Assembly: GCA_037783545.1 (NCBI GenBank)
Contig: JBBELK010001240.1
Coordinates: 1-64,000, forward strand
Direction: 5' to 3'
Length of the DNA: 64,000 nt
Origin: Henricia sp. BOLD:AAB3569
Lineage: Eukaryota > Echinodermata > Asteroidea > Spinulosida > Echinasteridae
In this document: positions 1-55,937 of the stretch, in pieces
Numbering within the stretch: position 1 is the stretch's first letter
Layout: each line of letters starts with the position of its first letter
Notes under the pieces: model-generated
Databases searched by the model: none
What the model was told of the DNA's origin: nothing
Seen by the model: only the letters and a program-made list of their open reading frames with translations
Translations under genes and position numbers: made by a program

Positions 1-3000
1 TATATTGCGCACTTGTCAAAAAAAAATGACAGACTTTCGCCGGGAAATGGCAGAGAAATTTCAAAGTTTAGAAAAAAATGGGTGAGGCTTCCTGACCTGC
101 TCTCACGCAAACAGTGGCTGTCTGTCACAGCCTCTTTGGGGTACTCCTGAGTTGTGCGCATGCGTCAGTCATTTGGACTGTCGTTAACGCACCGCAGATT
201 GGCTCGGCAATTGGTCAAAGTGTGGTCCAAACGTCGGCAAATTTGGAGGTCGAAAAATGTCCGACGAACTTCAATTTTGCATGCCCTAAACGTCTCTATA
301 TTGCGCACTTGTCATAAAAAATTGACAGACTTTCGCCGGAAATGGCAGAGAAATTTCAAAGTTTAGAAAAAAACTGGGTTGAGGCTTCCTGACTGCTCTC
401 ACGCAAACCGTGGCTGTCTGTACACACCTCTTGGGGTACTCCTGAGTTGTGCGCATGCTCAGTCATTCGGACTGTCGTTAACGCACCGCAGTTCGGCTCG
501 GCAATTTGGTCAAAGTGTGGTCCAAACGTCGGCAAATTTGGAGGTCGAAAAATGTTCCGACGAACTTCAAATTTTGCATGCCCTAAACTCTCTATATTGC
601 GCACTTGTCATAAAAAAATTGACAGACTTTCGCCGGGAAATGGCAGAGAAATTTCAAAGTTTAGAAAAAACTGGGTTGAGGCTTCCTGACTGCTCTCACG
701 CAAACCGTGGCTGTCTGTACACACCTCTTTGGGGTACTCCTGAGTTGTGCGCATGCTCAGTCATTCGGACTGTCGTTAACGCACCGCAGTTAGGCTCGGC
801 AATTTGGTCAAAGTGTGGTCCAAACGTCGGCAAATTTGGAGGTCGAAAAAATGTTCCGACGAACTTCAAATTTTGCATGCCCTAAACTCTCTATATTGCG
901 CACTTGTCATAAAAATTGACAGACTTTCGCCGGGAAATGGCAGAGAAATTTCAAAGTTTAGAAAAAACTGGTTGAGGCTTCTGACTGCTCTCACGCAAAC
1001 CGTGGCTGTCTGTACACACCTCTTTGGGGTACTCCTGAGTTGTGCGCATGCTCAGTCATTCGGACTGTCGTTAACGCACCGCAGTTTGGCTCGGCAATTT
1101 GGTCAAAGTGTGGTCCAAACGTCGGCAAATTTGGAAGTCAAAAAATGTTCCGACGAACTTCAAATTTTGCATGACCTAAACTCTCTATATTGCGCACTTG
1201 TCATAAAAAATTGACAGACTTTCGCCGGGAAATGGCAGAGAAATTTCAAAGTAGAACTGGGTTGAGGCTTCCTGACTGCTCTCACGCAAACCGTGGCTGT
1301 CTGTACACACCTCTTTGGGGTACTCCTGAGTTGTGCGCATGCTCAGTCATTCGGACTGTCGTTAACGCACCGCAGTTTGGCTCGGCAATTTGGTCAAAGT
1401 GTGGTCCAAACGTCGGCAAATTTGGAGGTCGAAAAATGTTCCGACGAACTTCAAATTTTGCATGCCCTAAACTCTCTATATTGCGCACTTGTCATACAAA
1501 AATTGACAGACTTTCGCCGGGAAATGGCAGAGAAATTTCAAAGTTTAGAAAAACTGGGTTGAGGCTTCCTGACTGCTCTCACGCAAACCGTGGCTGTCTG
1601 TACACACCTCTTTGGGTACTCCTGAGTTGTGCGCATGCTCAGGTCATTCGGACTGTCGTTAACGCACCGCAGTTTGGCTCGGCAATTTGGTCAAAGTGTG
1701 GTCCAAACGTCGGCAAATTTGGAGGTCGAAAAATGTTCCGACGAACTTCAAATTTTGCATGCCCTAAACTCTCTATATTGCGCACTTGTCATACAAAATG
1801 ACAGACTTTCGCCGGGAAATGGCAGAGAAATTTCAAAGTTTAGAAAAAACTGGTTGAGGCTTCCGACTGCTCTCACGCAAACCGTGCTGTCTGTACACAC
1901 CTCTTTTGGGTACTCCTGAGTTGTGCGCATGCTCAGTCATTCGGACTGTCGTTAACGCACCGCAGTTTGGCTCGGCAATTTGGTCAAAGTGTGGTCAAAC
2001 GTCGGCAAATTTGGAGGTCGAAAAATGTTCCGACGAACTTCAAATTTTGCATGCCCTAAACTCTCTATATTGCGCACTTGTCATAAAAAAATTGACAGAC
2101 TTTCGCCGGGAAATGGCAGAGAAATTTCAAAGTTTAGAAGAAACGGGTTGAGGCTTCCTGACTGCTCTCACGCAAACCGTGGCTGTCTGTACACACCTCT
2201 TTGGGGTACTCCTGAGTTGTGCGCATGCTCAGTCATTCGGACTGTCGTTAACGCACCGCACTTTGGCTCGGCAATTTGGTCAAAGTGTGGTCCAAACGTC
2301 GGCAAATTTGGAGGTCAAAAAATGTTCCGACGAACTTCAAGTTTTGCATGCCCTAAACTCTCTATATTGCGCACCTTGTCATAACAAATTTACAGACTTT
2401 CGCGGGAAATGGCAGAGAAATTTCAAAGTTTAGAAAAAACTGGGTTGAGGCTTCCTGACTGCTCTCACGCAAACCGTGGCTGTCTGTACACACCTCTTTG
2501 GGGTACTCCTGAGTTGTGCGCATGCTCAGTCATTCGGACTGTCGTTAACGCACCGCAGTTTGGCTCGGCAATTTGGTCAAAGTGTGGTCAAACGTCGGCA
2601 AATTTGGAGGTCGAAAATGTTCCGACGAACTTCAAATTTTGCATGCCCTAAACTCTCTATATTGCGCACTTGTCATAAAAAATTGACAGACTTTCGCCGG
2701 GAAATGGCAGAGAAATGTCAAAGTTTAGAAAAAACTGGGTTGAGGCTTCCTGACTGCTCTCACGCAAACCGTGGCTGTCTGTACACACCTCTTTGGGGTA
2801 CTCCTGAGTTGTGCGCATGCTCAGTCATTCGGACTGTCGTTAACGCACCGCAGTTTGGCTCGGCAATTTGGTCAAAGTGTGGTCCAAACGTCGGCAAATT
2901 TGGAGGTCGAAAAATGTTCCGACGAACTTCAAATTTTGCATGCCCTAAACTCTCTATATTGCGCACTTGTCATAAAAAAATTGACAGACTTTCGCCGGGA

Positions 3001-6000
3001 AATGGCAGAGAAATTTCAAAGTTTAGAAAAAACTGGGTTGAGGCTTCCTGACTGCTCTCACGCAAACCGTGGCTGTCTGTACACACCTCTTTGGGGTACT
3101 CCTGAGTTGTGCGCATGCTCAGTCATTCGGACTGTCGTTAACGCACCGCAGTTTGGCTCGGCAATTTGGTCAAAGTGTGGTCCAAACGTCGGCAAATTTG
3201 GAAGTCAAAAAATGTTCCGACGAACTTCAAATTTTGCATGACCTAAACTCTCTATATTGCGCACTTGTCATAAAAAATTGACAGACTTTCGCCGGGAAAT
3301 GGCAGAGAAATTTCAAAGACTGGGTTGAGGCTTCCTGACTGCTCTCACGCAAACCGTGGCTGTCTGTACACACCTCTTTGGGTACTCCTAAGTTGTGCGC
3401 ATGCTCAGTCATTCGGACTGTCGTTAACGCACCGCAGTTTGGCTCGGCAATTTGGTCAAAGTGTGGTCCAAACGTCGGCAAATTTGGAGGTCGAAAAATG
3501 TTCGACGAACTTCAAATTTTGCATGCCCTAAACTCTCTATATTGCGCACTTGTCATACAAAATTGACAGACTTTCGCCGGGAAATGGCAGAGAAATTTCA
3601 AAGTTTAGAAAAAACTGGGTTGAGGCTTCCGACTGCTCTCACGCAAACCGTGGCTGTCTGTACACACCTCTTTGGGTACTCCTGAGTTGTGCGCATGCTC
3701 AGTCATTCGGACTGTCGTTAACGCACCGCAGTTTGGCTCGGCAATTTGGTCAAAGTGTGGTCCAAACGTCGGCAAATTTGGAGGTCGAAAAATGTTCCGA
3801 CGAACTTCAAATTTTGCATGCCCTAAACTCTCTATATTGCGCACTTGTCATACAAAATTGACAGACTTTCGCCGGGAAATGGCAGAGAAATTTCAAAGTT
3901 TAGAAAAAACTGGGTTGAGGCTTCCGACTGCTCTCACGCAAACCGTGGCTGTCTGTACACACCTCTTTTGGGGTACTCCTGAGTTGTGCGCATGCTCAGT
4001 CATTCGGACTGTCGTTAACGCACCGCAGTTTGGCTCGGCAATTTGGTCAAAGTGTGGTCCAAACGTCGGCAAATTTGGAGGTCGAAAAATGTTCCGACGA
4101 ACTTCAAATTTTGCATGCCCTAAACTCTCTATATTGCGCACTTGTCATAAAAAATTGACAGACTTTCGCCGGGAAATGGCAGAGAAATTTCAAAATTTAG
4201 AAGAAACTGGGTTGAGGCTTCCTGACTGCTCTCACGCAAACCGTGGCTGTCTGTACACACCTCTTTGGGGTACTCCTGAGTTGTGCGCATGCTCAGTCAT
4301 TCGGACTGTCGTTAACGCACCGCACTTTGGCTCGGCAATTTGGTCAAAGTGTGGTCCAAACGTCGGCAAATTTGGAGGTCAAAAAATGTTCCGACGAACT
4401 TCAAGTTTTGCATGCCCTAAACTCTCTATATTGCGCACTTGTCATAACAAATTTACAGACTTTCGCCGGGAAATGGCAGAGAAATTTCAAAGTTTAGAAA
4501 AAACTGGGTTGAGGCTTCCTGACTGCTCTCACGCAAACCGTGGCTGTCTGTACACACCTCTTTGGGGTACTCCTGAGTTGTGCGCATGCTCAGTCATTCG
4601 GACTGTCGTTAACGCACCGCAGTTTGGCTCGGCAATTTGGTCAAAGTGTGGTCCAAACGTCGGCAAATTTGGAGGTCGAAAAATGTTCCGACGAACTTCA
4701 AATTTTGCATGCCCTAAACTCTCTATATTGCGCACTTGTCATAAAAAATTGACAGACTTTCGCCGGGAAATGGCAGAGAAATTTCAAAGTTTAGAAAAAA
4801 ACTGGGTTGAGGCTTCCTGACTGCTCTCACGCAAACCGTGGCTGTCTGTACACACCTCTTTGGGGTACTCCTGAGTTGTGCGCATGCTCAGTCATTCGGA
4901 CTGTCGTTAACGCACCGCAGTTTGGCTCGGCAATTTGGTCAAAGTGTGGTCCAAACGTCGGCAAATTTGGAGGTCGAAAAATGTTCCGACGAACTTCAAA
5001 TTTTGCATGCCCTAAACTCTCTATATTGCGCACTTGTCATAAAAAATTGACAGACTTTCGCCGGGAAATGGCAGAGAAATTTCAAAGTTTAGAAAAAACT
5101 GGGTTGAGGCTTCTGACTGCTCTCACGCAAACCGTGGCTGTCTGTACACACCTCTTTGGGGTACTCCTGAGTTGTGCGCATGCTCAGTCATTCGGACTGT
5201 CGTTAACGCACCGCAGTTTGGCTCGGCAATTTGGTCAAAGTGTGGTCCAAACGTCGGCAAATTTGGAGGTCGAAAAATGTTCCGACGAACTTCAAATTTT
5301 GCATGCCCTAAACTCTCTATATTGCGCACTTGTCATAAAAAATTGACAGACTTTCGCCGGGAAATGGCAGAGAAATTTCAAGTTTAGAAAAAACTGGGTT
5401 GAGGCTTCCTGACTGCTCTCACGCAAAACCGTGGCTGTCTGTACACACCTCTTTGGGGTACTCCTGAGTTGTGCGCATGCTCAGTCATTCGGACTGTCGT
5501 TAACGCACCGCAGTTTGGCTCGGCAATTTGGTCAAAGTGTAGTCCAAACGTCGGCAAATTTGGAGTCGAAAAATGTTCCGACGAACTTCAAATTTTGCAT
5601 GCCCTAAACTCTCTATATTGCGCACTTGTCATAAAAAATTGACAGACTTTCGCCGGGAAATGGCAGAGAAATTTCAAAGTTTAGAAAAAACTGGGTTGAG
5701 GCTTCCTGACTGCTCTCACGCAAACCGTGGCTGTCTGTACACACCTCTTTGGGGTACTCCTGAGTTGTGCGCATGCTCAGTCATTCGGACTGTCGTTAAC
5801 GCACCGCAGTTTGGCTCGGCAATTTGGTCAAAGTGTGGTCCAAACGTCGGCAAATTTGGAGGTCGAAAAATGTTCCGACGAACTTCAAATTTTGCATGCC
5901 CTAAACTCTCTATATTGCGCACTTGTCATAAAAAAATTGACAGACTTTCGCCGAGAAATGGAGAGAATTTCAAAGTTTAGAAAAAACTGGGTTGAGGCTT

Positions 6001-9821: not shown

Positions 9822-11373
9822 TGGCAGAGAAATTTCAAAGTTTAGAAAAAACTGGGTTGAGGCTTCCTGACTGCTCTCACGCAAACCGTGGCTGTCTGTA
9901 CACACCTCTTTGGGGTACTCCTGAGTTGTGCGCATGCTCAGTCATTCGGACTGTCGTTAACGCACCGCAGTTTGGCTCGGCAATTTGGTCAAAGTGTGGT
10001 CCAAACGTCGGCAAATTTGGAGGTCGAAAAATGTTCCGACGAACTTCAAATTTTGCATGCCCTAAACTCTCTATATTACGCACTTGTCATAAAAAAATTG
10101 ACAGACTTTCGCCGGGAAATGGAAGAGAAATTTCAAAGTTTAGAAAAAACTGGGTTGAGGCTTCCTGACTGCTCTCACGCAAACCGTGGCTGTCGGTACA
10201 CACCTCTTTGGGGTACTCCTGAGTTGTGCGCATGCTCAGTCATTCGGACTGTCGTTAACGCACCGCAGTTTGGCTCGGCAATTTGGTCAAAGTGTGGTCC
10301 AAACGTCGGCAAATTTTGAGGTCGAAAAATGTTCCGACGAACTTCAAATTTTGCATGCCCTAAACTCTCTATATTGCGCACTTGTCATAACAAATTGACA
10401 GACTTTCGCCGGGAAATGGCAGAGAAATTTCAAAGTTTAGAAAAAACTGGGTTGAGGCTTCCTGACTGCTCTCACGCAAACCGTGGCTGTCTGTACACAC
10501 CTCTTTGGGGTACTCCTGAGTTGTGCGCATGCTCAGTCATTCGGACTGTCGTTAACGCACCGCAGTTTGGCTCGGCAATTTGGTCAAAGTGTGGTCCAAA
10601 CGTCGGCAAATTTGGAGGTCGAAAAATGTTCCGACGAACTTCAAATTTTGCATGCCCTAAACTCTCTATATTGCGCACTTGTCATACAAAATTGACAGAC
10701 TTTCGCCGGGAAATGGCAGAGAAATTTCAAAGTTTAGAAAAAACTGGGTTGAGGCTTCCTGACTGCTCTCACGCAAACCGTGGCTGTCTGTACACACCTC
10801 TTTGGGGTACTCCTGAGTTGTGCGCATGCTCAGTCATTCGGACTGTCGTTAACGCACCGCAGTTTGGCTCGGCAATTTGGTCAAAGTGTGGTCCAAACGT
10901 CGGCAAATTTGGAGGTCGAAAAATGTTCCGACGAACTTCAAATTTTGCATGCCCTAAACTCTCTATATTGCGCACTTGTCATAAAAAATTGACAGACTTT
11001 CGCCGGGAAATGGCAGAGAAATTTCAAAGTTTAGTAAAAACTGGGTTGAGGCTTCCTGACTGCTCTCACGCAAACCGTGGCTGTCTGTACACACCTCTTT
11101 GAGGTACTCCTGAGTTGTGCGCATGCTCAGTCATTCGGACTGTCGTTAACGCACCGCAGTTTGGCTCGGCAATTTGGTCAAAGTGTGGTCCAAACGTCGG
11201 CAAATTTGGAGGTCGAAAAATGTTCCGACGAACTTCAAATTTTGCATGCCCTAAACTCTCTATATTGCGCACTTGTCATAAAAAATTGACAGACTTTCGC
11301 CGGGAAATGGCAGAGAAATTTCAAAGTTTAGAAAAAACTGGGTTGAGGCTTCCTGACTGCTCTCACGCAAACC

Positions 11374-13159
11374 GTGGCTGTCTGTACACACCTCTTTGGG
11401 GTACTCCTGAGTTGTGCGCATGCTCAGTCATTCGGACTGTCGTTAACGCACCGCAGTTTGGCTCGGCAATTTGGTCAAAGTGTGGTCCAAACGTCGGCAA
11501 ATTTGGAGGTCGAAAAATGTTCCGACGAACTTCAAATTTTGCATGCCCTAAACTCTCTATATTGCGCACTTGTCATAAAAAATTGACAGACTTTCGCAGG
11601 GAAATGGCAGAGAAATTTCAAAGTTTAGAAAAAACTGGGTTGAGGCTTCCTGACTGCTCTCACGCAAACCGTGGCTGTCTGTACACACCTCTTTGGGGTA
11701 CTCCTGAGTTGTGCGCATGCTCAGTCATTCGGACTGTCGTTAACGCACCGCAGTTTGGCTCGGCAATTTGGTCAAAGTGTAGTCCAAACGTCGGCAAATT
11801 TGGAGGTCGAAAAATGTTCCGACGAACTTCAAATTTTGCATGCCCTAAACTCTCTATATTGCGCACTTGTCATAACAAATTGACAGACTTTCGCCGGGAA
11901 ATGGCAGAGAAATTTCAAAGTTTAGAAAAAACTGGGTTGAGGCTTCCTGACTGCTCTCACGCAAACCGTGGCTGTCTGTACACACCTCTTTGGGGTACTC
12001 CTGAGTTGTGCGCATGCTCAGTCATTCGGACTGTCGTTAACGCACCGCAGTTTGGCTCGGCAATTTGGTCAAAGTGTGGTCCAAACGTCGGCAAATTTGG
12101 AGGTCGAAAAATGTTCCGACGAACTTCAAATTTTGCATGCCCTAAACTCTCTATATTGCGCACTTGTCATAAAAAAATTGACAGACTTTCGCCGGGAAAT
12201 GGAAGAGAAATTTCAAAGTTTAGAAAAAACTGGGTTGAGGCTTCCTGACTGCTCTCACGCAAACCGTGGCTGTCTGTACACACCTCTTTGGGGTACTCCT
12301 GAGTTGTGCGCATGCTCAGTCATTCGGACTGTCGTTAACGCACCGCAGTTTGGCTCGGCAATTTGGTCAAAGTGTGGTCCAAACGTCGGCAAATTTGGAG
12401 GTCGAAAAATGTTCCGACGAACTTCAAATTTTGCATGCCCTAAACTCTCTATATTGCGCACTTGTCATAAAAAAATTGACAGACTTTCGCCGGGAAATGG
12501 CAGAGAAATTTCAAAGTTTAGAAAAAACTGGGTTGAGGCTTCCTGACTGCTCTCACGCAAACCGTGGCTGTCTGTACACACCTCTTTGGGGTACTCCTGA
12601 GTTGTGCGCATGCTCAGTCATTCGGACTGTCGTTAACGCACCGCAGTTTGGCTCGGCAATTTGGTCAAAGTGTGGTCCAAACGTCGGCAAATTTGGAGGT
12701 CGAAAAATGTTCCGACGAACTTCAAATTTTGCATGCCCTAAACTCTCTATATTGCGCACTTGTCATAAAAAAATTGACAGACTTTCGCCGGGAAATGGAA
12801 GAGAAATTTCAAAGTTTAGAAAAAACTGGGTTGAGGCTTCCTGACTGCTCTCACGCAAACCGTGGCTGTCTGTACACACCTCTTTGGGGTACTCCTGAGT
12901 TGTGCGCATGCTCAGTCATTCGGACTGTCGTTAACGCACCGCAGTTTGGCTCGGCAATTTGGTCAAAGTGTGGTCCAAACGTCGGCAAATTTGGAGGTCG
13001 AAAAATGTTCCGACGAACTTCAAATTTTGCATGCCCTAAACTCTCTATATTGCGCACTTGTCATAAAAAAATTGACAGACTTTCGCCGGGAAATGGAAGA
13101 GAAATTTCAAAGTTTAGAAAAAACTGGGTTGAGGCTTCCTGACTGCTCTCACGCAAACC
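11374..13159 (+). repeat. Six-monomer HOR block S, copy 2
   Basis: Same ordered marker series as 7,211-8,996, displaced 4,163 bp. The unit before it has the CTTTGAGGTAC variant in both places. After the block the two contexts diverge, so the duplication has ends. Confidence 0.8.
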
Positions 13160-14050
13160 GTGGCTGTCTGTACACACCTCTTTGGGGTACTCCTGAGTTG
13201 TGCGCATGCTCAGTCATTCGGACTGTCGTTAACGCACCGCAGTTTGGCTCGGCAATTTGGTCAAAGTGTGGTCCAAACGTCGGCAAATTTGGAGGTCGAA
13301 AAATGTTCCGACGAACTTCAAATTTTGCATGCCCTAAACTCTCTATATTGCGCACTTGTCATACAAAATTGACAGACTTTCGCCGGGAAATGGCAGAGAA
13401 ATTTCAAAGTTTAGTAAAAACTGGGTTGAGGCTTCCTGACTGCTCTCACGCAAACCGTGGCTGTCTGTACACACCTCTTTGAGGTACTCCTGAGTTGTGC
13501 GCATGCTCAGTCATTCGGACTGTCGTTAACGCACCGCAGTTTGGCTCGGCAATTTGGTCAAAGTGTGGTCCAAACGTCGGCAAATTTGGAGGTCGAAAAA
13601 TGTTCCGACGAACTTCAAATTTTGCATGCCCTAAACTCTCTATATTGCGCACTTGTCATAAAAAATTGACAGACTTTCGCCGGGAAATGGCAGAGAAATT
13701 TCAAAGTTTAGAAAAAACTGGGTTGAGGCTTCCTGACTGCTCTCACGCAAACCGTGGCTGTCTGTACACACCTCTTTGGGGTACTCCTGAGTTGTGCGCA
13801 TGCTCAGTCATTCGGACTGTCGTTAACGCACCGCAGTTTGGCTCGGCAATTTGGTCAAAGTGTGGTCCAAACGTCGGCAAATTTGGAGGTCGAAAAATGT
13901 TCCGACGAACTTCAAATTTTGCATGCCCTAAACTCTCTATATTGCGCACTTGTCATACAAAATTGACAGACTTTCGCCGGGAAATGGAAGAGAAATTTCA
14001 AAGTTTAGAAAAAACTGGGTTGAGGCTTCCTGACTGCTCTCACGCAAACC

Positions 14051-16723
14051 GTGGCTGTCTGTACACACCTCTTTGGGGTACTCCTGAGTTGTGCGCATGC
14101 TCAGTCATTCGGACTGTCGTTAACGCACCGCAGTTTGGCTCGGCAATTTGGTCAAAGTGTGGTCCAAACGTCGGCAAATTTTGAGGTCGAAAAATGTTCC
14201 GACGAACTTCAAATTTTGCATGCCCTAAACTCTCTATATTGCGCACTTGTCATAACAAATTGACAGACTTTCGCCGGGAAATGGCAGAGAAATTTCAAAG
14301 TTTAGAAAAAAATGGGTTGAGGCTTCCTGACTGCTCTCACGCAAACCGTGGCTGTCTGTACACACCTCTTTGGGGTACTCCTGAGTTGTGCGCATGCTCA
14401 GTCATTCGGACTGTCGTTAACGCACCGCAGTTTGGCTCGGCAATTTGGTCAAAGTGTGGTCCAAACGTCGGCAAATTTGGAGGTCGAAAAATGTTCCGAC
14501 GAACTTCAAATTTTGCATGCCCTAAACTCTCTATATTGCGCACTTGTCATAAAAAATTGACAGACTTTCGCCGGGAAATGGCAGAGAAATTTCAAAGTTT
14601 AGAAAAAACTGGGTTGAGGCTTCCTGACTGCTCTCACGCAAACCGTGGCTGTCTGTACACACCTCTTTGGGGTACTCCTGAGTTGTGCGCATGCTCAGTC
14701 ATTCGGACTGTCGTTAACGCACCGCAGTTTGGCTCGGCAATTTGGTCAAAGTGTGGTCCAAACGTCGGCAAATTTGGAGGTCGAAAAATGTTCCGACGAA
14801 CTTCAAATTTTGCATGCCCTAAACTCTCTATATTGCGCACTTGTCATAAACAATTGACAGACTTTCGCCGGGAAATGGCAGAGAAATTTCAAAGTTTAGA
14901 AAAAACTGAGTTGAGGCTTCCTGACTGCTCTCACGAAACCGTGGCTGTCTGTACACACCTCTTTGGGGTACTCCTGAGTTGTGCGCATGCTCAGTCATTC
15001 GGACTGTCGTTAACGCACCGCAGTTTGGCTCGGCAATTTGGTCAAAGTGTGGTCCAAACGTCGGCAAATTTGGAGGTCGAAAAATGTTCCGACGAACTTC
15101 AAATTTTGCATGCCCTAAACTCTCTATATTGCGCACTTGTCATAAAAAAATTGACAGACTTTCGCCGGGAAATGGAAGAGAAATTTCAAAGTTTAGAAAA
15201 AACTGGGTTGAGGCTTCCTGACTGCTCTCACGCAAACCGTGGCTGTCTGTACACACCTCTTTGGGGTACTCCTGAGTTGTGCGCATGCTCAGTCATTCGG
15301 ACTGTCGTTAACGCACCGCAGTTTGGCTCGGCAATTTGGTCAAAGTGTGGTCCAAACGTCGGCAAATTTTGAGGTCGAAAAATGTTCCGACGAACTTCAA
15401 ATTTTGCATGCCCTAAACTCTCTATATTGCGCACTTGTCATAACAAATTGACAAACTTTCGCCGGGAAATGGCAGAGAAATTTCAAAGTTTAGAAAAAAA
15501 TGGGTTGAGGCTTCCTGACTGCTCTCACGCAAACCGTGGCTGTCTGTACACACCTCTTTGGGGTACTCCTGAGTTGTGCGCATGCTCAGTCATTCGGACT
15601 GTCGTTAACGCACCGCAGTTTGGCTCGGCAATTTGGTCAAAGTGTGGTCCAAACGTCGGCAAATTTGGAGGTCGAAAAATGTTCCGACGAACTTCAAATT
15701 TTGCATGCCCTAAACTCTCTATATTGCGCACTTGTCATACAAAATTGACAGACTTTCGCCGGGAAATGGCAGAGAAATTTCAAAGTTTAGAAAAAACTGG
15801 GTTGAGGCTTCCTGACTGCTCTCACGCAAACCGTGGCTGTCTGTACACACCTCTTTGGGGTACTCCTGAGTTGTGCGCATGCTCAGTCATTCGGACTGTC
15901 GTTAACGCACCGCAGTTTGGCTCGGCAATTTGGTCAAAGTGTGGTCCAAACGTCGGCAAATTTGGAGGTCGAAAAATGTTCCGACGAACTTCAAATTTTG
16001 CATGCCCTAAACTCTCTATATTGCGCACTTGTCATAAAAAAATTGACAGACTTTCGCCGGGAAATGGCAGAGAAATTTCAAAGTTTAGTAAAAACTGGGT
16101 TGAGGCTTCCTGACTGCTCTCACGCAAACCGTGGCTGTCTGTACACACCTCTTTGAGGTACTCCTGAGTTGTGCGCATGCTCAGTCATTCGGACTGTCGT
16201 TAACGCACCGCAGTTTGGCTCGGCAATTTGGTCAAAGTGTGGTCCAAACGTCGGCAAATTTGGAGGTCGAAAAATGTTCCGACGAACTTCAAATTTTGCA
16301 TGCCCTAAACTCTCTATATTGCGCACTTGTCATAAACAATTGACAGACTTTCGCCGGGAAATGGCAGAGAAATTTCAAAGTTTAGAAAAAACTGAGTTGA
16401 GGCTTCCTGACTGCTCTCACGAAACCGTGGCTGTCTGTACACACCTCTTTGGGGTACTCCTGAGTTGTGCGCATGCTCAGTCATTCGGACTGTCGTTAAC
16501 GCACCGCAGTTTGGCTCGGCAATTTGGTCAAAGTGTGGTCCAAACGTCGGCAAATTTGGAGGTCGAAAAATGTTCCGACGAACTTCAAATTTTGCATGCC
16601 CTAAACTCTCTATATTGCGCACTTGTCATAAAAAATTGACAGACTTTCGCCGGGAAATGGCAGAGAAATTTCAAAGTTTAGAAAAAACTGGGTTGAGGCT
16701 TCCTGACTGCTCTCACGCAAACC
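14051..16723 (+). repeat. Nine-monomer HOR block R, copy 1
   Basis: Ordered markers are: AAATTTTGAGG with AAAAAAATGGG; plain; AAACAATTG with ACTGAGTTG; CACGAAACC (one base short) with GGAAGAG; AAATTTTGAGG with GACAAACTTTC; ATACAAAATTG; extended A-run with TTAGTAAAAAC; CTTTGAGGTAC with AAACAATTG; CACGAAACC. The full series recurs about 8,325 bp (28 monomers) later. Confidence 0.85.
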
Positions 16724-31587: not shown

Positions 31588-34264
31588 GTGGCTGTCTGTA
31601 CACACCTCTTTGGGGTACTCCTGAGTTGTGCGCATGCTCAGTCATTCGGACTGTCGTTAACGCACCGCAGTTTGGCTCGGCAATTTGGTCAAAGTGTGGT
31701 CCAAACGTCGGCAAATTTGGAGGTCGAAAAATGTTCCGACGAACTTCAAATTTTGCATGCCCTAAACTCTCTATATTGCGCACTTGTCATAAAAAATTGA
31801 CAGACTTTCGCCGGGAAATGGCAGAGAAATTTCAAAGTTTAGAAAAAACTGGGTTGAGGCTTCCTGACTGCTCTCACGCAAACCGTGGCTGTCTGTACAC
31901 ACCTCTTTGGGGTACTCCTGAGTTGTGCGCATGCTCAGTCATTCGGACTGTCGTTAACGCACCGCAGTTTGGCTCGGCAATTTGGTCAAAGTGTGGTCCA
32001 AACGTCGGCAAATTTGGAGGTCGAAAAATGTTCCGACGAACTTCAAATTTTGCATGCCCTAAACTCTCTATATTGCGCACTTGTCATAAAAAATTGACAG
32101 ACTTTCGCCGGGAAATGGCAGAGAAATTTCAAAGTTTAGAAAAAACTGGGTTGAGGCTTCCTGACTGCTCTCACGCAAACCGTGGCTGTCTGTACACACC
32201 TCTTTGGGGTACTCCTGAGTTGTGCGCATGCTCATTCATTCGGACTGTCGTTAACGCACCGCAGTTTGGCTCGGCAATTTGGTCAAAGTGTGGTCCAAAC
32301 GTCGGCAAATTTGGAGGTCGAAAAATGTTCCGACGAACTTCAAATTTTGCATGCCCTAAACTCTCTATATTGCGCACTTGTCATAAAAAATTGACAGACT
32401 TTCGCCGGGAAATGGCAGAGAAATTTCAAAGTTTAGAAAAAACTGGGTTGAGGCTTCCTGACTGCTCTCACGCAAACCGTGGCTGTCTGTACACACCTCT
32501 TTGGGGTACTCCTGAGTTGTGCGCATGCTCAGTCATTCGGACTGTCGTTAACGCACCGCAGTTTGGCTCGGCAATTTGGTCAAAGTGTGGTCCAAACGTC
32601 GGCAAATTTGGAGGTCGAAAAATGTTCCGACGAACTTCAAATTTTGCATGCCCTAAACTCTCTATATTGCGCACTTGTCATAAAAAATTGACAGACTTTC
32701 GCCGGGAAATGGCAGAGAAATTTCAAAGTTTAGAAAAAAACTGGGTTGAGGCTTCCTGACTGCTCTCACGCAAACCGTGGCTGTCTGTACACACCTCTTT
32801 GGGGTACTCCTGAGTTGTGCGCATGCTCAGTCATTCGGACTGTCGTTAACGCACCGCAGTTTGGCTCGGCAATTTGGTCAAAGTGTGGTCCAAACGTCGG
32901 CAAATTTGGAGGTCGAAAAATGTTCCGACGAACTTCAAATTTTGCATGCCCTAAACTCTCTATATTGCGCACTTGTCATAAAAAATTGACAGACTTTCGC
33001 CGGGAAATGGCAGAGAAATTTCAAAGTTTAGAAAAAAACTGGGTTGAGGCTTCCTGACTGCTCTCACGCAAACCGTGGCTGTCTGTACACACCTCTTTGG
33101 GGTACTCCTGAGTTGTGCGCATGCTCAGTCATTCGGACTGTCGTTAACGCACCGCAGTTTGGCTCGGCAATTTGGTCAAAGTGTGGTCCAAACGTCGGCA
33201 AATTTGGAGGTCGAAAAATGTTCCGACGAACTTCAAATTTTGCATGCCCTAAACTCTCTATATTGCGCACTTGTCATAAAAAATTGACAGACTTTCGCCG
33301 GGAAATGGCAGAGAAATTTCAAAGTTTAGAAAAAAAACTGGGTTGAGGCTTCCTGACTGCTCTCACGCAAACCGTGGCTGTCTGTACACACCTCTTTGGG
33401 GTACTCCTGAGTTGTGCGCATGCTCAGTCATTCGGACTGTCGTTAACGCACGGCAGATTGGCTCGGCAATTTGGTCAAAGTGTGGTCCAAACGTCGGCAA
33501 ATTTGGAGGTCGAAAAATGTTCCGACGAACTTCAAATTTTGCATGCCCTAAACTCTAAATATTGCGCACTTGTCATAAAAAATTGACAGACTTTCGCCGG
33601 GAAATGGCAGAGAAATTTCAAAGTTTAGAAAAAACTGGGTTGAGGCTTCCTGACTGCTCAAACGCAAACCGTGGCTGTCTGTACACACCTCTTTGGGGTA
33701 CTCCTGAGTTGTGCGCATGCTCAGTCATTCGGACTGTCGTTAACGCACCGCAGTTTGGCTCGGCAATTTGGTCAAAGTGTGGTCCAAACGTCGGCAAATT
33801 TGGAGGTCGAAAAATGTTCCGACGAACTTCAAATTTTGCATGCCCTAAACTCTCTATATTGCGCACTTGTCATACAAAATTGACAGACTTTCGCCGGGAA
33901 ATGGCAGAGAAATTTCAAAGTTTAGAAAAAACTGGGTTGAGGCTTCCTGACTGCTCTCACGCAAACCGTGGCTGTCTGTACACACCTCTTTGGGGTACTC
34001 CTGAGTTGTGCGCATGCTCAGTCATTCGGACTGTCGTTAACGCACCGCAGTTTGGCTCGGCAATTTGGTCAAAGTGTGGTCCAAACGTCGGCAAATTTGG
34101 AGGTCGAAAAATGTTCCGACGAACTTCAAATTTTGCATGCCCTAAACTCTCTATATTGCGCACTTGTCATAAAAAATTGACAGACTTTCGCCGGGAAATG
34201 GCAGAGAAATTTCAAAGTTTAGAAAAAACTGGGTTTAGGCTTCCTGACTGCTCTCACGCAAACC
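31588..34264 (+). repeat. Near-consensus satellite segment
   Basis: Nine units close to consensus. Private changes include CTCATTCATT at about 32,231, A-run lengthening in three consecutive units (32.7-33.3 kb), CACGGCAGATTGG at about 33,450 and CTCTAAATATT at about 33,553. CAGATTGG also occurs in the first monomer of the window. No block structure is obvious here. Confidence 0.75.
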
Positions 34265-36642: not shown

Positions 36643-38771
36643 GTGGCTGTCTGTACACACCTCTTTGGGGTACTCCTGAGTTGTGCGCATGCTCAGTCAT
36701 TCGGACTGTCGTTAACGCACCGCAGTTTGGCTCGGCAATTTGGTCAAAGTGTGGTCCAAACGTCGGCAAATTTGGAGGTCGAAAAATGTTCCGACGAACT
36801 TCAAATTTTGCATGCCCTAAACTCTCTATATTGCGCACTTGTCATAAACAATTGACAGACTTTCGCCGGGAAATGGCAGAGAAATTTCAAAGTTTAGAAA
36901 AAACTGGGTTGAGGCTTCCTGACTGCTCTCACGCAAACCGTGGCTGTCTGTACACACCTCTTTGGGGTACTCCTGAGTTGTGCGCATGCTCAGTCATTCG
37001 GACTGTCGTTAACGCACCGCAGTTTGGCTCGGCAATTTGGTCAAAGTGTGGTCCAAACGTCGGCAAATTTGGAGGTCGAAAAATGTTCCGACGAACTTCA
37101 AATTTTGCATGCCCTACACTCTCTATATTGCGCACTTGTCATAAAAAATTGACAGACTTTCGCCGGGAAATGGCAGAGAAATTTCAAAGTTTAGAAAAAA
37201 CTGGGTTGAGGCTTCCTGACTGCTCTCACGCAAACCGTGGCTGTCTGTACACACCTCTTTGGGGTACTCCTGAGTTGTGCGCATGCTCAGTCATTCGGAC
37301 TGTCGTTAACGCACCGCAGTTTGGCTCGGCAATTTGGTCAAAGTGTGGTCCAAACGTCGGCAAATTTGGAGGTCGAAAAATGTTCCGACGAACTTCAAAT
37401 TTTGCATGCCCTAAACTCTCTATATTGCGCACTTGTCATAAAAAATTGACAGACTTTCGCCGGGAAATGGCAGAGAAATTTCAAAGTTTAGAAAAAAACT
37501 GGGTTGAGGCTTCCTGACTGCTCTCACGCAAACCGTGGCTGTCTGTACACACCTCTTTGGGGTACTCCTGAGTTGTGCGCATGCTCAGTCATTCGGACTG
37601 TCGTTAACGCACCGCAGTTTGGCTCGGCAATTTGGTCAAAGTGTGGTCCAAACGTCGGCAAATTTGGAGGTCGAAAAATGTTCCGACGAACTTCAAATTT
37701 TGCATGCCCTAAACTCTCTATATTGCGCACTTGTCATAAAAAATTGACAGACTTTCGCCGGGAAATGGAAGAGAAATTTCAAAGTTTAGAAAAAACTGGG
37801 TGAGGCTTCCTGACTGCTCTCACGCAAACCGTGGCTGTCTGTACACACCTCTTTGGGGTACTCCTGAGTTGTGCGCATGCTCAGTCATTCGGACTGTCGT
37901 TAACGCACCGCAGTTTGGCTCGGCAATTTGGTCAAAGTGTGGTCCAAACGTCGGCAAATTTGGAGGTCGAAAAATGTTCCGACGAACTTCAAATTTTGCA
38001 TGCCCTAAACTCTCTATATTGCGCACTTGTCATAACAAATTGACAGACTTTCGCCGGGAAATGGCAGAGAAATTTCAAAGTTTAGAAAAAACTGGGTTGA
38101 GGCTTCCTGACTGCTCTCACGCAAACCGTGGCTGTCTGTACACACCTCTTTGGGGTACTCCTGAGTTGTGCGCATGCTCAGTCATTCGGACTGTCGTTAA
38201 CGCACCGCAGTTTGGCTCGGCAATTTGGTCAAAGTGTGGTCCAAACGTCGGCAAATTTGGAGGTCGAAAAATGTTCCGACGAACTTCAAATTTTGCATGC
38301 CCTAAACTCTCTATATTGCGCACTTGTCATAAAAAATTGACAGACTTTCGCCGGGAAATGGCAGAGAAATTTCAAAGTTTAGAAAAAACTGGGTTGAGGC
38401 TTCCTGACTGCTCTCACGCAAACCGTGGCTGTCTGTACACACCTCTTTGGGGTACTCCTGAGTTGTGCGCATGCTCAGTCATTCGGACTGTCGTTAACGC
38501 ACCGCAGTTTGGCTCGGCAATTTGGTCAAAGTGTGGTCCAAACGTCTGCAAATTTGGAGGTCGAAAAATGTTCCGACGAACTTCAAATTTTGCATGCCCT
38601 AAACTCTCTATATTGCGCACTTGTCATAAAAAAAGGACAGACTTTCGCCGGGAAATGGCAGAGAAATTTCAAAGTTTAGAAAAAACTGGGTTGAGGCTTC
38701 CTGACTGCTCTCACGCAAACCGTGGCTGTCTGTACACACCTCTTTGGGGTACTCCTGAGTTGTGCGCATGC

Positions 38772-38783
38772 TCAGTCATTCGG
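38772..38783 (+). repeat. Left target-site duplication of SINE 1
   Basis: TCAGTCATTCGG precedes the element. The last G could equally belong to the SINE 5' end, so the duplication is 11-12 bp. Confidence 0.92.
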
Positions 38784-38794
38784 GGCGGTCGGGT

Positions 38795-38805
38795 TGGCGT
38801 ACGGG
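38795..38805 (+). promoter_or_regulatory. Pol III A box of SINE 1
   Basis: TGGCGTACGGG fits the A-box consensus TRGYNNANNGG at every fixed position. It lies about 11 bases from the element's 5' end and 32 bases before the B box, as expected for an internal type 2 Pol III promoter. Confidence 0.85.
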
Positions 38806-38837
38806 TTCTTTCCTCGCCTTTCACCTCTGGCGTCCCG

Positions 38838-38848
38838 GGTTCGAATCC
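38838..38848 (+). promoter_or_regulatory. Pol III B box of SINE 1
   Basis: GGTTCGAATCC is a perfect match to the B-box consensus GGTTCGANTCC. It lies in a T-arm-like context with flanking CCCG and CGGGG. Confidence 0.93.
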
Positions 38849-38891
38849 GGGGCGTGTATGTGGATTGGGTTTGTAGTCCCTACTTGACCGC

Positions 38892-38935
38892 GTGGGTTTT
38901 CCCCTGGGGCATTTCTCTGGGGGTTTTCCTCCCAC
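38892..38935 (+). other. Central conserved-looking SINE domain, copy 1
   Basis: This 44-bp stretch starts GTGGGTTTTCCCC and ends GGGGTTTTCCTCCCAC, so its ends are complementary and two similar TTTTCC cores repeat inside. Comparable GTGGGTTT...TTTCCTCCCAC segments occur in tRNA-derived SINEs of fishes and invertebrates. From memory this may be the Meta domain; I could not check. The two TTTT runs are minimal Pol III terminators and could shorten some transcripts. Confidence 0.55.
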
Positions 38936-39010
38936 TTCTAAAACTGCAACTCCTTCTTCGTCATCTCAAGTTGATAATATAGTATAGTTAAAGCTAAAAC
39001 CGTATAGTTG

Positions 39011-39045
39011 ATGGCATAAAGGGCCTTAGTTGCCGAAGATGCCAT
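39011..39045 (+). other. 3' stem-loop of SINE 1
   Basis: ATGGCAT (39,011-39,017) pairs with ATGCCAT (39,039-39,045) over a 21-base loop, just 7 bases before the ACA tail. In many SINEs the 3' end copies the 3' end of a partner LINE, where such stem-loops are recognised by the reverse transcriptase. That role is inferred here. Confidence 0.6.
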
Positions 39046-39052
39046 AAAATAT

Positions 39053-39070
39053 ACAACAACAACAACAACA
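39053..39070 (+). repeat. (ACA)6 tail of SINE 1
   Basis: Six perfect ACA units end the element directly before the right target-site duplication. A short simple-repeat tail instead of poly(A) points to a partner LINE that recognises its own 3' sequence (RTE- or CR1-like rather than L1-like). Confidence 0.9.
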
Positions 39071-39082
39071 TCAGTCATTCGG
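39071..39082 (+). repeat. Right target-site duplication of SINE 1
   Basis: TCAGTCATTCGG follows the ACA tail and continues as ACTGTCG, the normal satellite sequence. Removing the SINE and one copy restores a uninterrupted monomer. Confidence 0.92.
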
Positions 39083-39912
39083 ACTGTCGTTAACGCACCG
39101 CAGTTTGGCTCGGCAATTTGGTCAAAGTGTAGTCCAAAAGTCGGCAAATTTGGAGGTCGAAAAATGTTCCGACGAACTTCAAATTTTGCATGCCCTAAAC
39201 TCTCTATATTGCGCACTTGTCATAAAAAATTGACAGACTTTCGCCGGGAAATGGCAGAGAAATTTCAAAGTTTAGAAAAAACTGGGTTGAGGCTTCCTGA
39301 CTGCTCTCACGCAAACCGTGGCTGTCTGTACACACCTCTTTGGGGTACTCCTGAGTTGTGCGCATGCTCAGTCATTCGGACTGTCGTTAACGCACCGCAG
39401 TTTGGCTCGGCAATTTGGTCAAAGTGTGGTCCAAACGTCGCCAAATTTGGAGGTCGAAAAATGTTCCGACGAACTTCAAATTTTGCATGCCCTAAACTCT
39501 CTATATTGCGCACTTGTCATAAAAAATTGACAGACTTTCGCCGGGAAATGGCAGAGAAATTTTAAAGTTTAGAAAAAACTGGGTTGAGGCTTCCTGACTG
39601 CTCTCACGCAAACCGTGGCTGTATGTACACACCTCTTTGGGGTACTCCTGAGTTGTGCGCATGCTCAGTCATTCGGACTGTCGTTAACGCACCGCAGTTT
39701 GGCTCGGCAATTTGGTCAAAGTGTGGTCCAAACGTCGGCAAATTTGGAGGTCGAAAAATGTTCCGACGAACTTCAAATTTTGCATGCCCTAAACTCTCTA
39801 TATTGCGCACTTGTCATAAAAAATTGACAGACTTTCGCCGGGAAATGGCAGAGAAATTTCAAAGTTTAGAAAAAAACTGGGTTGAGGCTTCCTGACTGCT
39901 CTCACGCAAACC

Positions 39913-41099
39913 GTGGCTGTCTGTACACACCTCTTTGGGGTACTCCTGAGTTGTGCGCATGCTCAGTCATTCGGACTGTCGTTAACGCACCGCAGTTTGG
40001 CTCGGCAATTTGGTCAAAGTGTGGTCCAAACGTCTGCAAATTTGGAGGTCGAAAAATGTTCCGACGAACTTCAAATTTTGCATGCCCTAAACTCTCTATA
40101 TTGCGCACTTGTCATAAAAAAAGGACAGACTTTCGCCGGGAAATGGCAGAGAAATTTCAAAGTTTAGAAAAAACTGGTTGAGGCTTCCTGACTGCTCTCA
40201 CGCAAACCGTGGCTGTCTGTACACACCTCTTTGGGGTACTCCTGAGTTGTGCGCATGCTCAGTCATTCGGACTGTCGTTAACGCACCGCAGTTTGGCTCG
40301 GCAATTTGGTCAAAGTGTAGTCCAAAAGTCGGCAAATTTGGAGGTCGAAAAATGTTCCGACGAACTTCAAATTTTGCATGCCCTAAACTCTCTATATTGC
40401 GCACTTGTCATAAAAAATTGACAGACTTTCGCCGGGAAATGGCAGAGAAATTTCAAAGTTTAGAAAAAACTGGGTTGAGGCTTCCTGACTGCTCTCACGC
40501 AAACCGTGGCTGTCTGTACACACCTCTTTGGGGTACTCCTGAGTTGTGCGCATGCTCAGTCATTCGGACTGTCGTTAACGCACCGCAGTTTGGCTCGGCA
40601 ATTTGGTCAAAGTGTGGTCCAAACGTCGCCAAATTTGGAGGTCGAAAAATGTTCCGACGAACTTCAAATTTTGCATGCCCTAAACTCTCTATATTGCGCA
40701 CTTGTCATAAAAAATTGACAGACTTTCGCCGGGAAATGGCAGAGAAATTTTAAAGTTTAGAAAAAACTGGGTTGAGGCTTCCTGACTGCTCTCACGCAAA
40801 CCGTGGCTGTATGTACACACCTCTTTGGGGTACTCCTGAGTTGTGCGCATGCTCAGTCATTCGGACTGTCGTTAACGCACCGCAGTTTGGCTCGGCAATT
40901 TGGTCAAAGTGTGGTCCAAACGTCGGCAAATTTGGAGGTCGAAAAATGTTCCGACGAACTTCAAATTTTGCATGCCCTAAACTCTCTATATTGCGCACTT
41001 GTCATAAAAAATTGACAGACTTTCGCCGGGAAATGGCAGAGAAATTTCAAAGTTTAGAAAAAACTGGGTTGAGGCTTCCTGACTGCTCTCACGTAAATC
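39913..41099 (+). repeat. Four-monomer HOR, copy 2, without SINE
   Basis: Markers fall at 40,035, 40,319 and 40,327, 40,629, 40,751 and 40,811. The markers downstream of the insertion point are each exactly 1,188 bp after their counterparts in copy 1; the upstream marker is 1,488 bp after its counterpart because of the SINE. This copy has small A-run and GG/GGG differences from copy 1, so the two have been separate for some time. Confidence 0.92.
40259..40270 (+). other. Empty (pre-insertion) target site matching SINE 1
   Basis: TCAGTCATTCGG occurs once here and runs straight into ACTGTCG. In the paralogous unit of the adjacent HOR copy the same 12-mer flanks SINE 1 on both sides. The shared private variants just downstream (GTAGTCCAAAAGTCGG) show that this is the true counterpart unit and not just any monomer. 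It is a natural empty site. Confidence 0.9.
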
Positions 41100-55650: not shown

Positions 55651-55664
55651 GAGGGCGGTCGGGT

Positions 55665-55675
55665 TGGCGTACGGG
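55665..55675 (+). promoter_or_regulatory. Pol III A box of SINE 2
   Basis: TGGCGTACGGG, identical to copy 1 and a full match to TRGYNNANNGG. Confidence 0.85.
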
Positions 55676-55707
55676 TTCTTTCCTCGCCTTTCACCTCTGG
55701 GGTCCCG

Positions 55708-55718
55708 GGTTCGAATCC
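55708..55718 (+). promoter_or_regulatory. Pol III B box of SINE 2
   Basis: GGTTCGAATCC, identical to copy 1 and a perfect B-box match, 32 bases after the A box. Confidence 0.93.
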
Positions 55719-55761
55719 GGGGCGTGTATGTGGATTGGGTTTGCAGTCCCTACTTGACCGC

Positions 55762-55805
55762 GTGGGTTTTCCCCTGGGGAATTTCTCTGGGGGTTTTCCT
55801 CCCAC
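55762..55805 (+). other. Central conserved-looking SINE domain, copy 2
   Basis: Same 44-bp GTGGG...CCCAC domain as copy 1, with one substitution (A at 55,780). The two TTTT runs are kept. Confidence 0.55.
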
Positions 55806-55881
55806 TTCTAAAACTGCAACTCCTTCTTCGTCATCTCAAGTTGATAATATAGTATAGTTAAAAGCTAAAACCGTATAGTTG

Positions 55882-55916
55882 ATGGCATAAAGGGCCTTAG
55901 TTGCCGAAGATGCCAT
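55882..55916 (+). other. 3' stem-loop of SINE 2
   Basis: ATGGCAT (55,882-55,888) pairs with ATGCCAT (55,910-55,916), loop 21 bases, exactly as in copy 1. Confidence 0.6.
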
Positions 55917-55923
55917 AAAATAT

Positions 55924-55937
55924 ACAACAACAACAAC
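55924..55937 (+). repeat. (ACA)n tail of SINE 2
   Basis: Four ACA units plus AC, 14 bp against 18 bp in copy 1. Tail length is the most variable part of the element. Confidence 0.9.

Follow-up and report, generated by a model that had tools for sequence, protein, structure and literature searches.

When a SINE interrupts one of two neighboring copies of a satellite block and is absent from the other, does the pair record which came first, the duplication or the insertion? The locus that raises this question lies in a 64-kb stretch of DNA (the window), which corresponds to bases 1 to 64,000 of the 185,031-bp contig C1240, from a eukaryotic assembly that comprises 2,104 contigs and 740.7 Mb. 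A single tandem array, made of 215.5 copies of a 297-bp repeat with 97% matches, fills the window, and decomposition of the whole contig showed that satellite monomers span it end to end apart from insertions. C1240 was cut into 605 units, and variants are given here against the commonest monomer, with 0-based monomer positions. No single fixed multi-monomer period, as expected of a regular higher-order repeat, runs through the array of C1240: the sharing of rare substitutions peaks at lags of 4 (41), 12 (40), 9 (35), and 3 (34) monomers, and every lag from 1 to 30 monomers shows some. Our literature search found no description of a 297-bp satellite. Elsewhere on the contig, window positions 892-5,021 form a seven-monomer tandem pair in which deletions have reduced the spacing of several monomers to 285, 291, or 292 bp, and a 2,651-bp insertion whose ends are nonsatellite lies in the array at 134,311-137,259.

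An earlier note on this DNA had described two adjacent copies of a four-monomer block, only the first of which contains a SINE, and had concluded that the block duplicated first and that the SINE landed afterwards. The blocks and the interval between them are as follows:

38312..39798, plus strand: block 1 (A1-D1), four monomers plus the SINE; from the monomer decomposition and variant list.
39799..40986, plus strand: block 2 (A2-D2), with the same eight substitutions and without the SINE; from the monomer decomposition and alignment.
39624..39906, no strand: interval expected to hold the duplication junction; deduced from variant positions.
40176..40177, plus strand: GG in the empty monomer B2 (GGG in B1 and in the commonest monomer), the second of two indels between the blocks; from the alignment and decomposition.

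The monomers of block 1 start at 38,312 (A1), 38,609 (B1), 39,205 (C1), and 39,502 (D1), and those of block 2 at 39,799 (A2), 40,097 (B2), 40,393 (C2), and 40,690 (D2), with unit boundaries that are uncertain within about 280 bp because the flanks are consensus monomer. Eight substitutions are common to both blocks, at the same place in each copy: 235G>T in monomer A; 25T>A, 26T>G, 223G>A, and 231C>A in monomer B; 236G>C in monomer C; and 61C>T and 121C>A in monomer D. The junction interval is bounded on one side by D1's 121C>A, 3' of which it should lie, and on the other by the absence of 107C>T, a substitution present in the monomer after block 2. Between the two blocks we count 0 substitution differences and two 1-bp homopolymer indels, namely, one additional A in the A-run at 39,870-39,876 and the GG at 40,176-40,177 (79delG), which sits between the diagnostic variants 26 and 223 of B2. 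Random four-monomer pairs in C1240 differ by a mean of 13.0 substitutions. On the coordinates of the earlier note, and with the SINE and one target copy removed, the alignment gives four differences, the two indels plus two C>T changes at the far end; the right end proposed there, 41,099, overshoots by a few bases, as the C>T changes at 41,094 and 41,098 belong to the next monomer (107C>T and 111C>T).

Could such a pair arise by chance from the order of the monomers? We permuted the monomer order of C1240 in 1,000 shuffles, counting as a match a rare substitution shared four places on. The best placement reached two of four matching monomers in 37 shuffles, one in 908, and none in 55; all four monomers match in the real pair, a score that 0 of the 1,000 shuffles attained and that 3 of 598 placements reach in the real contig. 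The description of adjacent four-monomer copies is thus borne out by the eight shared substitutions and by the match of all four monomers. Similarly, this pair shares seven rare substitutions, a number reached in 0 of 200 shuffles (one shuffle reached six), and two other places in C1240 share eight. The pair is therefore real, though stronger pairs exist in C1240. Indeed, if a tandem block pair is required to share four or more rare substitutions spread over two or more monomers, C1240 contains 12 nonoverlapping pairs, which occupy 43,946 bp (23.8%) of it, and 45 pairs of four-monomer blocks, counted with overlapping windows and distant pairs included, are identical in their substitutions, with at least four each. 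Tandem block duplication is thus frequent in this contig, so that a later insertion into one such pair is no great coincidence. With 12 recognizable pairs occupying nearly a quarter of C1240, the remark that homogenization normally erases such evidence is overstated here.

The earlier note had also called at least six of the shared variants private, at constant spacing. The sharing is confirmed, with eight substitutions in register; the privacy is only partial, and genome-wide the picture is mixed. Among the 605 units, 235T, 26G, and 121A occur only in this pair, and the others are found in 3 (231A), 3 (236C), 7 (223A), 9 (25A), and 13 (61T) units; the combination of 223A and 231A is limited in C1240 to the two blocks. 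Across the genome, exact matches to the string with 223A and 231A number 43, spread over 11 contigs, with 2 of the matches in C1240, and the string with 25A and 26G has three, 2 of them in C1240, in a search whose pattern needs exactly seven A after CAT and misses B-like monomers with longer A-runs on contigs C1691 and C405. Decomposition of five of twelve loci revealed B-like monomers with 25A, 26G, and 223A on C1691 (two), C405, and C1536, and 231A is also present in three of them (both C1691 copies and that of C405). All four carry an additional 54G>T, and B1 and B2 both lack 54T, which makes B1 and B2 each other's closest relatives among the B-like monomers examined. A monomer with 235G>T followed by one with 26T>G is also found once on C1274 and twice on C865.

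How specific the pair is depends on the length compared. The earlier note had named a closer relative of the slice 40,209-40,505 elsewhere in the array as grounds for refutation; none is present inside C1240, but three exact matches lie outside it, on C538, C405, and C349, among the best 40 of 859 candidates, so that no proof can be drawn from this slice by itself. Over the longer stretch 39,990-40,850, none of the best 40 of 3,825 candidates equals the window sequence, the best other match scoring 1,517 versus 1,553 bits, and no further copy of the whole block appears in that same set. As for a second haplotype, exact-string markers at 41,088, just right of the block, and at 34,259, 4 kb to the left, are single-copy in the assembly; apparently, only one haplotype of the block region was assembled.

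The insertion itself is defined by the alignment of the filled copy with the empty one:

38784..39070, plus strand: SINE in B1, 287 bp, tRNA-like; from the alignment of filled versus empty copy.
38772..38783, plus strand: 5' copy of the target-site duplication, TCAGTCATTCGG; from the alignment.
39071..39082, plus strand: 3' copy of the target-site duplication, TCAGTCATTCGG; from the alignment.
40259..40270, plus strand: single intact (empty) target in monomer B2; from the alignment.

The observation that the SINE is confined to the first block and that the second keeps the 12-bp target once, unbroken, is correct. The insertion site is monomer position 163, and the duplication measures 10 to 12 bp because the Gs at the 5' junction can be assigned to either side. 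The element behaves as a SINE retroposon: its flanking target duplication is single at the empty site, and dispersed copies have duplications of their own, readable in five of the seven copies for which flanks were obtained (L002-L006, not L007 or L008). At least 43 dispersed matches are present in the genome, the best 40 of 92 candidates having been scored. The SINE has a CAA-rich tail, an A-box-like string, TGGCGTACGGG, at 38,795, and a B-box-like string, GGTTCGAATCC, at 38,838. ARAGORN found no tRNA in the window, and Rfam gave no family at the gathering threshold. The element may be comparable to the MetaSINE-like tRNA-derived SINEs with a conserved central domain, which it resembles in its A- and B-box-like motifs, CAA-rich tail, and short target duplications; its GTTTTC-rich stretch may be a further resemblance. 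The SINE is identical over 287 of 287 positions to a copy on contig C141 that has its own target duplication, and by this identity we regard it as young.

The satellite has received other insertions, one of which also lies in the window:

55651..55936, plus strand: second SINE of the window, at monomer position 92, target CTGACTGCTCTC; from the decomposition.

A larger duplication of the filled block, of which this second SINE would be part, was considered and rejected, given the different position (92 versus 163) and the different target duplication. The position-92 insertion is present in seven copies in C1240 (window 55,651-55,936 and 66,240-79,328), and the string at its 3' junction is matched exactly at 29 places on six contigs, 22 of these places being outside C1240. 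The position-92 SINE thus appears to be one insertion multiplied with the satellite. Two C1240 blocks, 77,847-79,328 and 80,813-82,004, share 27G>T, 105C>T, 190C>T, and a TCCG insertion, as well as 262C>A, 270T>A, a TT deletion, and 41G>A; their fourth monomer is filled at position 92 in the former and empty in the latter, and it may have been exchanged, since no shared variant is found there.

Position 163 is filled on two further contigs, C460 (three copies, in monomers with 158C>G) and C1156 (four copies, in composite units). Both SINEs have C at the site corresponding to 38,874, where that of block 1 has T; L002-L008 match the block 1 SINE there, in a best-match sample that is biased towards T. 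The position-163 SINEs on C460 and C1156 are likely to be independent insertions at one target, to judge from their sequences. Common descent of the C460 and block 1 SINEs from one insertion is possible, as beyond 38,874 a 6-bp shorter tail in the C460 element is the sole difference. We do not favor the proposal that the block 1 SINE was copied in from C460 or C1156, in view of the other monomer backgrounds and of C versus T at 38,874. Position 163 may possibly be a repeated SINE target, used in three backgrounds by different SINE alleles. On C460 (L050-L052 joined, reverse complement 11,303-14,563), monomers with 158C>G follow each other at four-monomer spacing as filled, filled, and empty; apart from 158C>G, no listed variant links the empty one to the filled ones, and the series offers a weaker parallel of the block pair. 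On C1156, at position 842 of the reverse complement (L053-L055), an element of the same SINE family lies in opposite orientation at monomer position 113.

What, then, does the block pair say about the order of events? The tandem duplication is in the assembly, the SINE has its target duplication, the second site is empty, and the blocks are nearly identical. The first three of these bear out the earlier conclusion, but the strict deduction of the order does not follow, and the dating claim is plausible but too strong. From these observations we infer a likely order of events and a mechanism of exchange. A four-monomer segment of the satellite would have been duplicated in tandem, most likely through out-of-register exchange or break-induced replication between sister chromatids; later, a young SINE would have inserted into monomer B of the first block by target-primed reverse transcription, as is general for SINEs, making the 10- to 12-bp target duplication and leaving block 2 with the unbroken ancestral target. 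We judge this to be the best single history, and a probable one, on a weighing of the evidence rather than a calculation. In the B lineage, the empty state seems to be the ancestral one, because all four B-like monomers on C1691, C405, and C1536 are empty at the SINE site. Divergence cannot order the two events, since there are 0 substitutions between the blocks and 0 in 287 bp relative to the C141 SINE; both duplication and insertion look recent in these comparisons.

Two observations count against duplication having come first. The three other filled lineages examined number seven copies (position 92, C1240), three (position 163, C460), and four (position 163, C1156), which makes copying after insertion the norm for this satellite, and the change from GGG to GG at 40,176 lies in the empty monomer, inside the interval that a conversion tract would occupy. 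The former bears on a history in which the SINE inserted into a single block, giving a filled/empty polymorphism, and in which out-of-register exchange between filled and empty homologues then placed the two states in tandem. This is as parsimonious as duplication first, each history needing two events (here, one insertion and one exchange). It also fits the recent look of both events, and SINE-bearing monomers have been copied along with the array in C1240. However, it requires exchange between homologues, not sisters, and a haplotype with a single filled block was not seen, which is a weak objection when apparently one haplotype was assembled; altogether, we consider that the SINE is unlikely to have come before the duplication. 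The G-run change bears on the alternative that the empty copy was cleaned and is not ancestral, both blocks having once been filled and a gene-conversion tract of less than 200 bp from an empty monomer having removed the SINE from block 2 and brought in 79delG. Conversion confined to the interval between monomer positions 26 and 223 would spare the diagnostic variants, and 79delG falls in that interval in the empty copy only, which is a faint hint. Yet the coincidence is a mild one for an interval that makes up about 17% of the block; the change itself, 79delG, affects a homopolymer; the other two C1240 monomers with 79delG, at 892 and 1,774, carry further variants, those at 892 including extra changes, outside or within the tract, that are absent from B2; and three events are required. 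We hold such cleaning to be quite improbable. If it were true, filled/empty pairs would record the active purging of insertions and not the order of duplication and insertion.

The pair might also owe its existence to the assembly, either because the two alleles of one block, filled and empty, were set side by side or because a satellite read path was misjoined. Apart from its insertions, C1240 consists wholly of satellite, the assembly is split into 2,104 contigs, and only one haplotype of the block region seems to be represented, all of which would suit such an error. On the other hand, the D1-A2 junction keeps the monomer register exactly, C1240 contains 11 other tandem block pairs of comparable kind, and falsely duplicated alleles would usually bring along more flanking sequence than four monomers. 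An artefact thus seems to us very doubtful, and we retain duplication followed by insertion as the preferred history.

Mobile elements in satellite DNA have precedents. According to a study of human alpha-satellite, mobile elements have inserted at least once in about 30% of active arrays, the unique polymorphic insertions total 89, and duplication of one element would account for most of those in the chromosome 2 array (PMC11451754). The locus described here resembles those higher-order-repeat arrays, where young polymorphic L1, Alu, and SVA elements lie within satellite (PMC11451754). It differs from them in that the satellite is a 297-bp repeat and only one of the two tandem copies contains the SINE; the portions of that study cited here describe no filled/empty tandem pair for the human centromere (PMC11451754). 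Unequal exchange and break-induced replication are put forward as models of satellite duplications (PMC8997354), and, as in those models, sets of variant monomers have been duplicated locally in C1240, as in its 12 tandem block pairs. The C1240 data do not separate the two mechanisms as they are outlined there (PMC8997354). Our search of the literature found no work that treats SINEs together with satellite monomers, their target-site duplications, and the matching empty sites.

We regard the filled/empty block pair as a new case of a known phenomenon, within the ordinary history of repeat arrays. Where divergence says little about satellite events, insertions whose empty state is known give those events a direction. 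The block pair is a clear example of this, but the order that it gives depends on excluding allelic exchange and conversion. The value of the approach would lie in many such pairs typed in a population, not in one.
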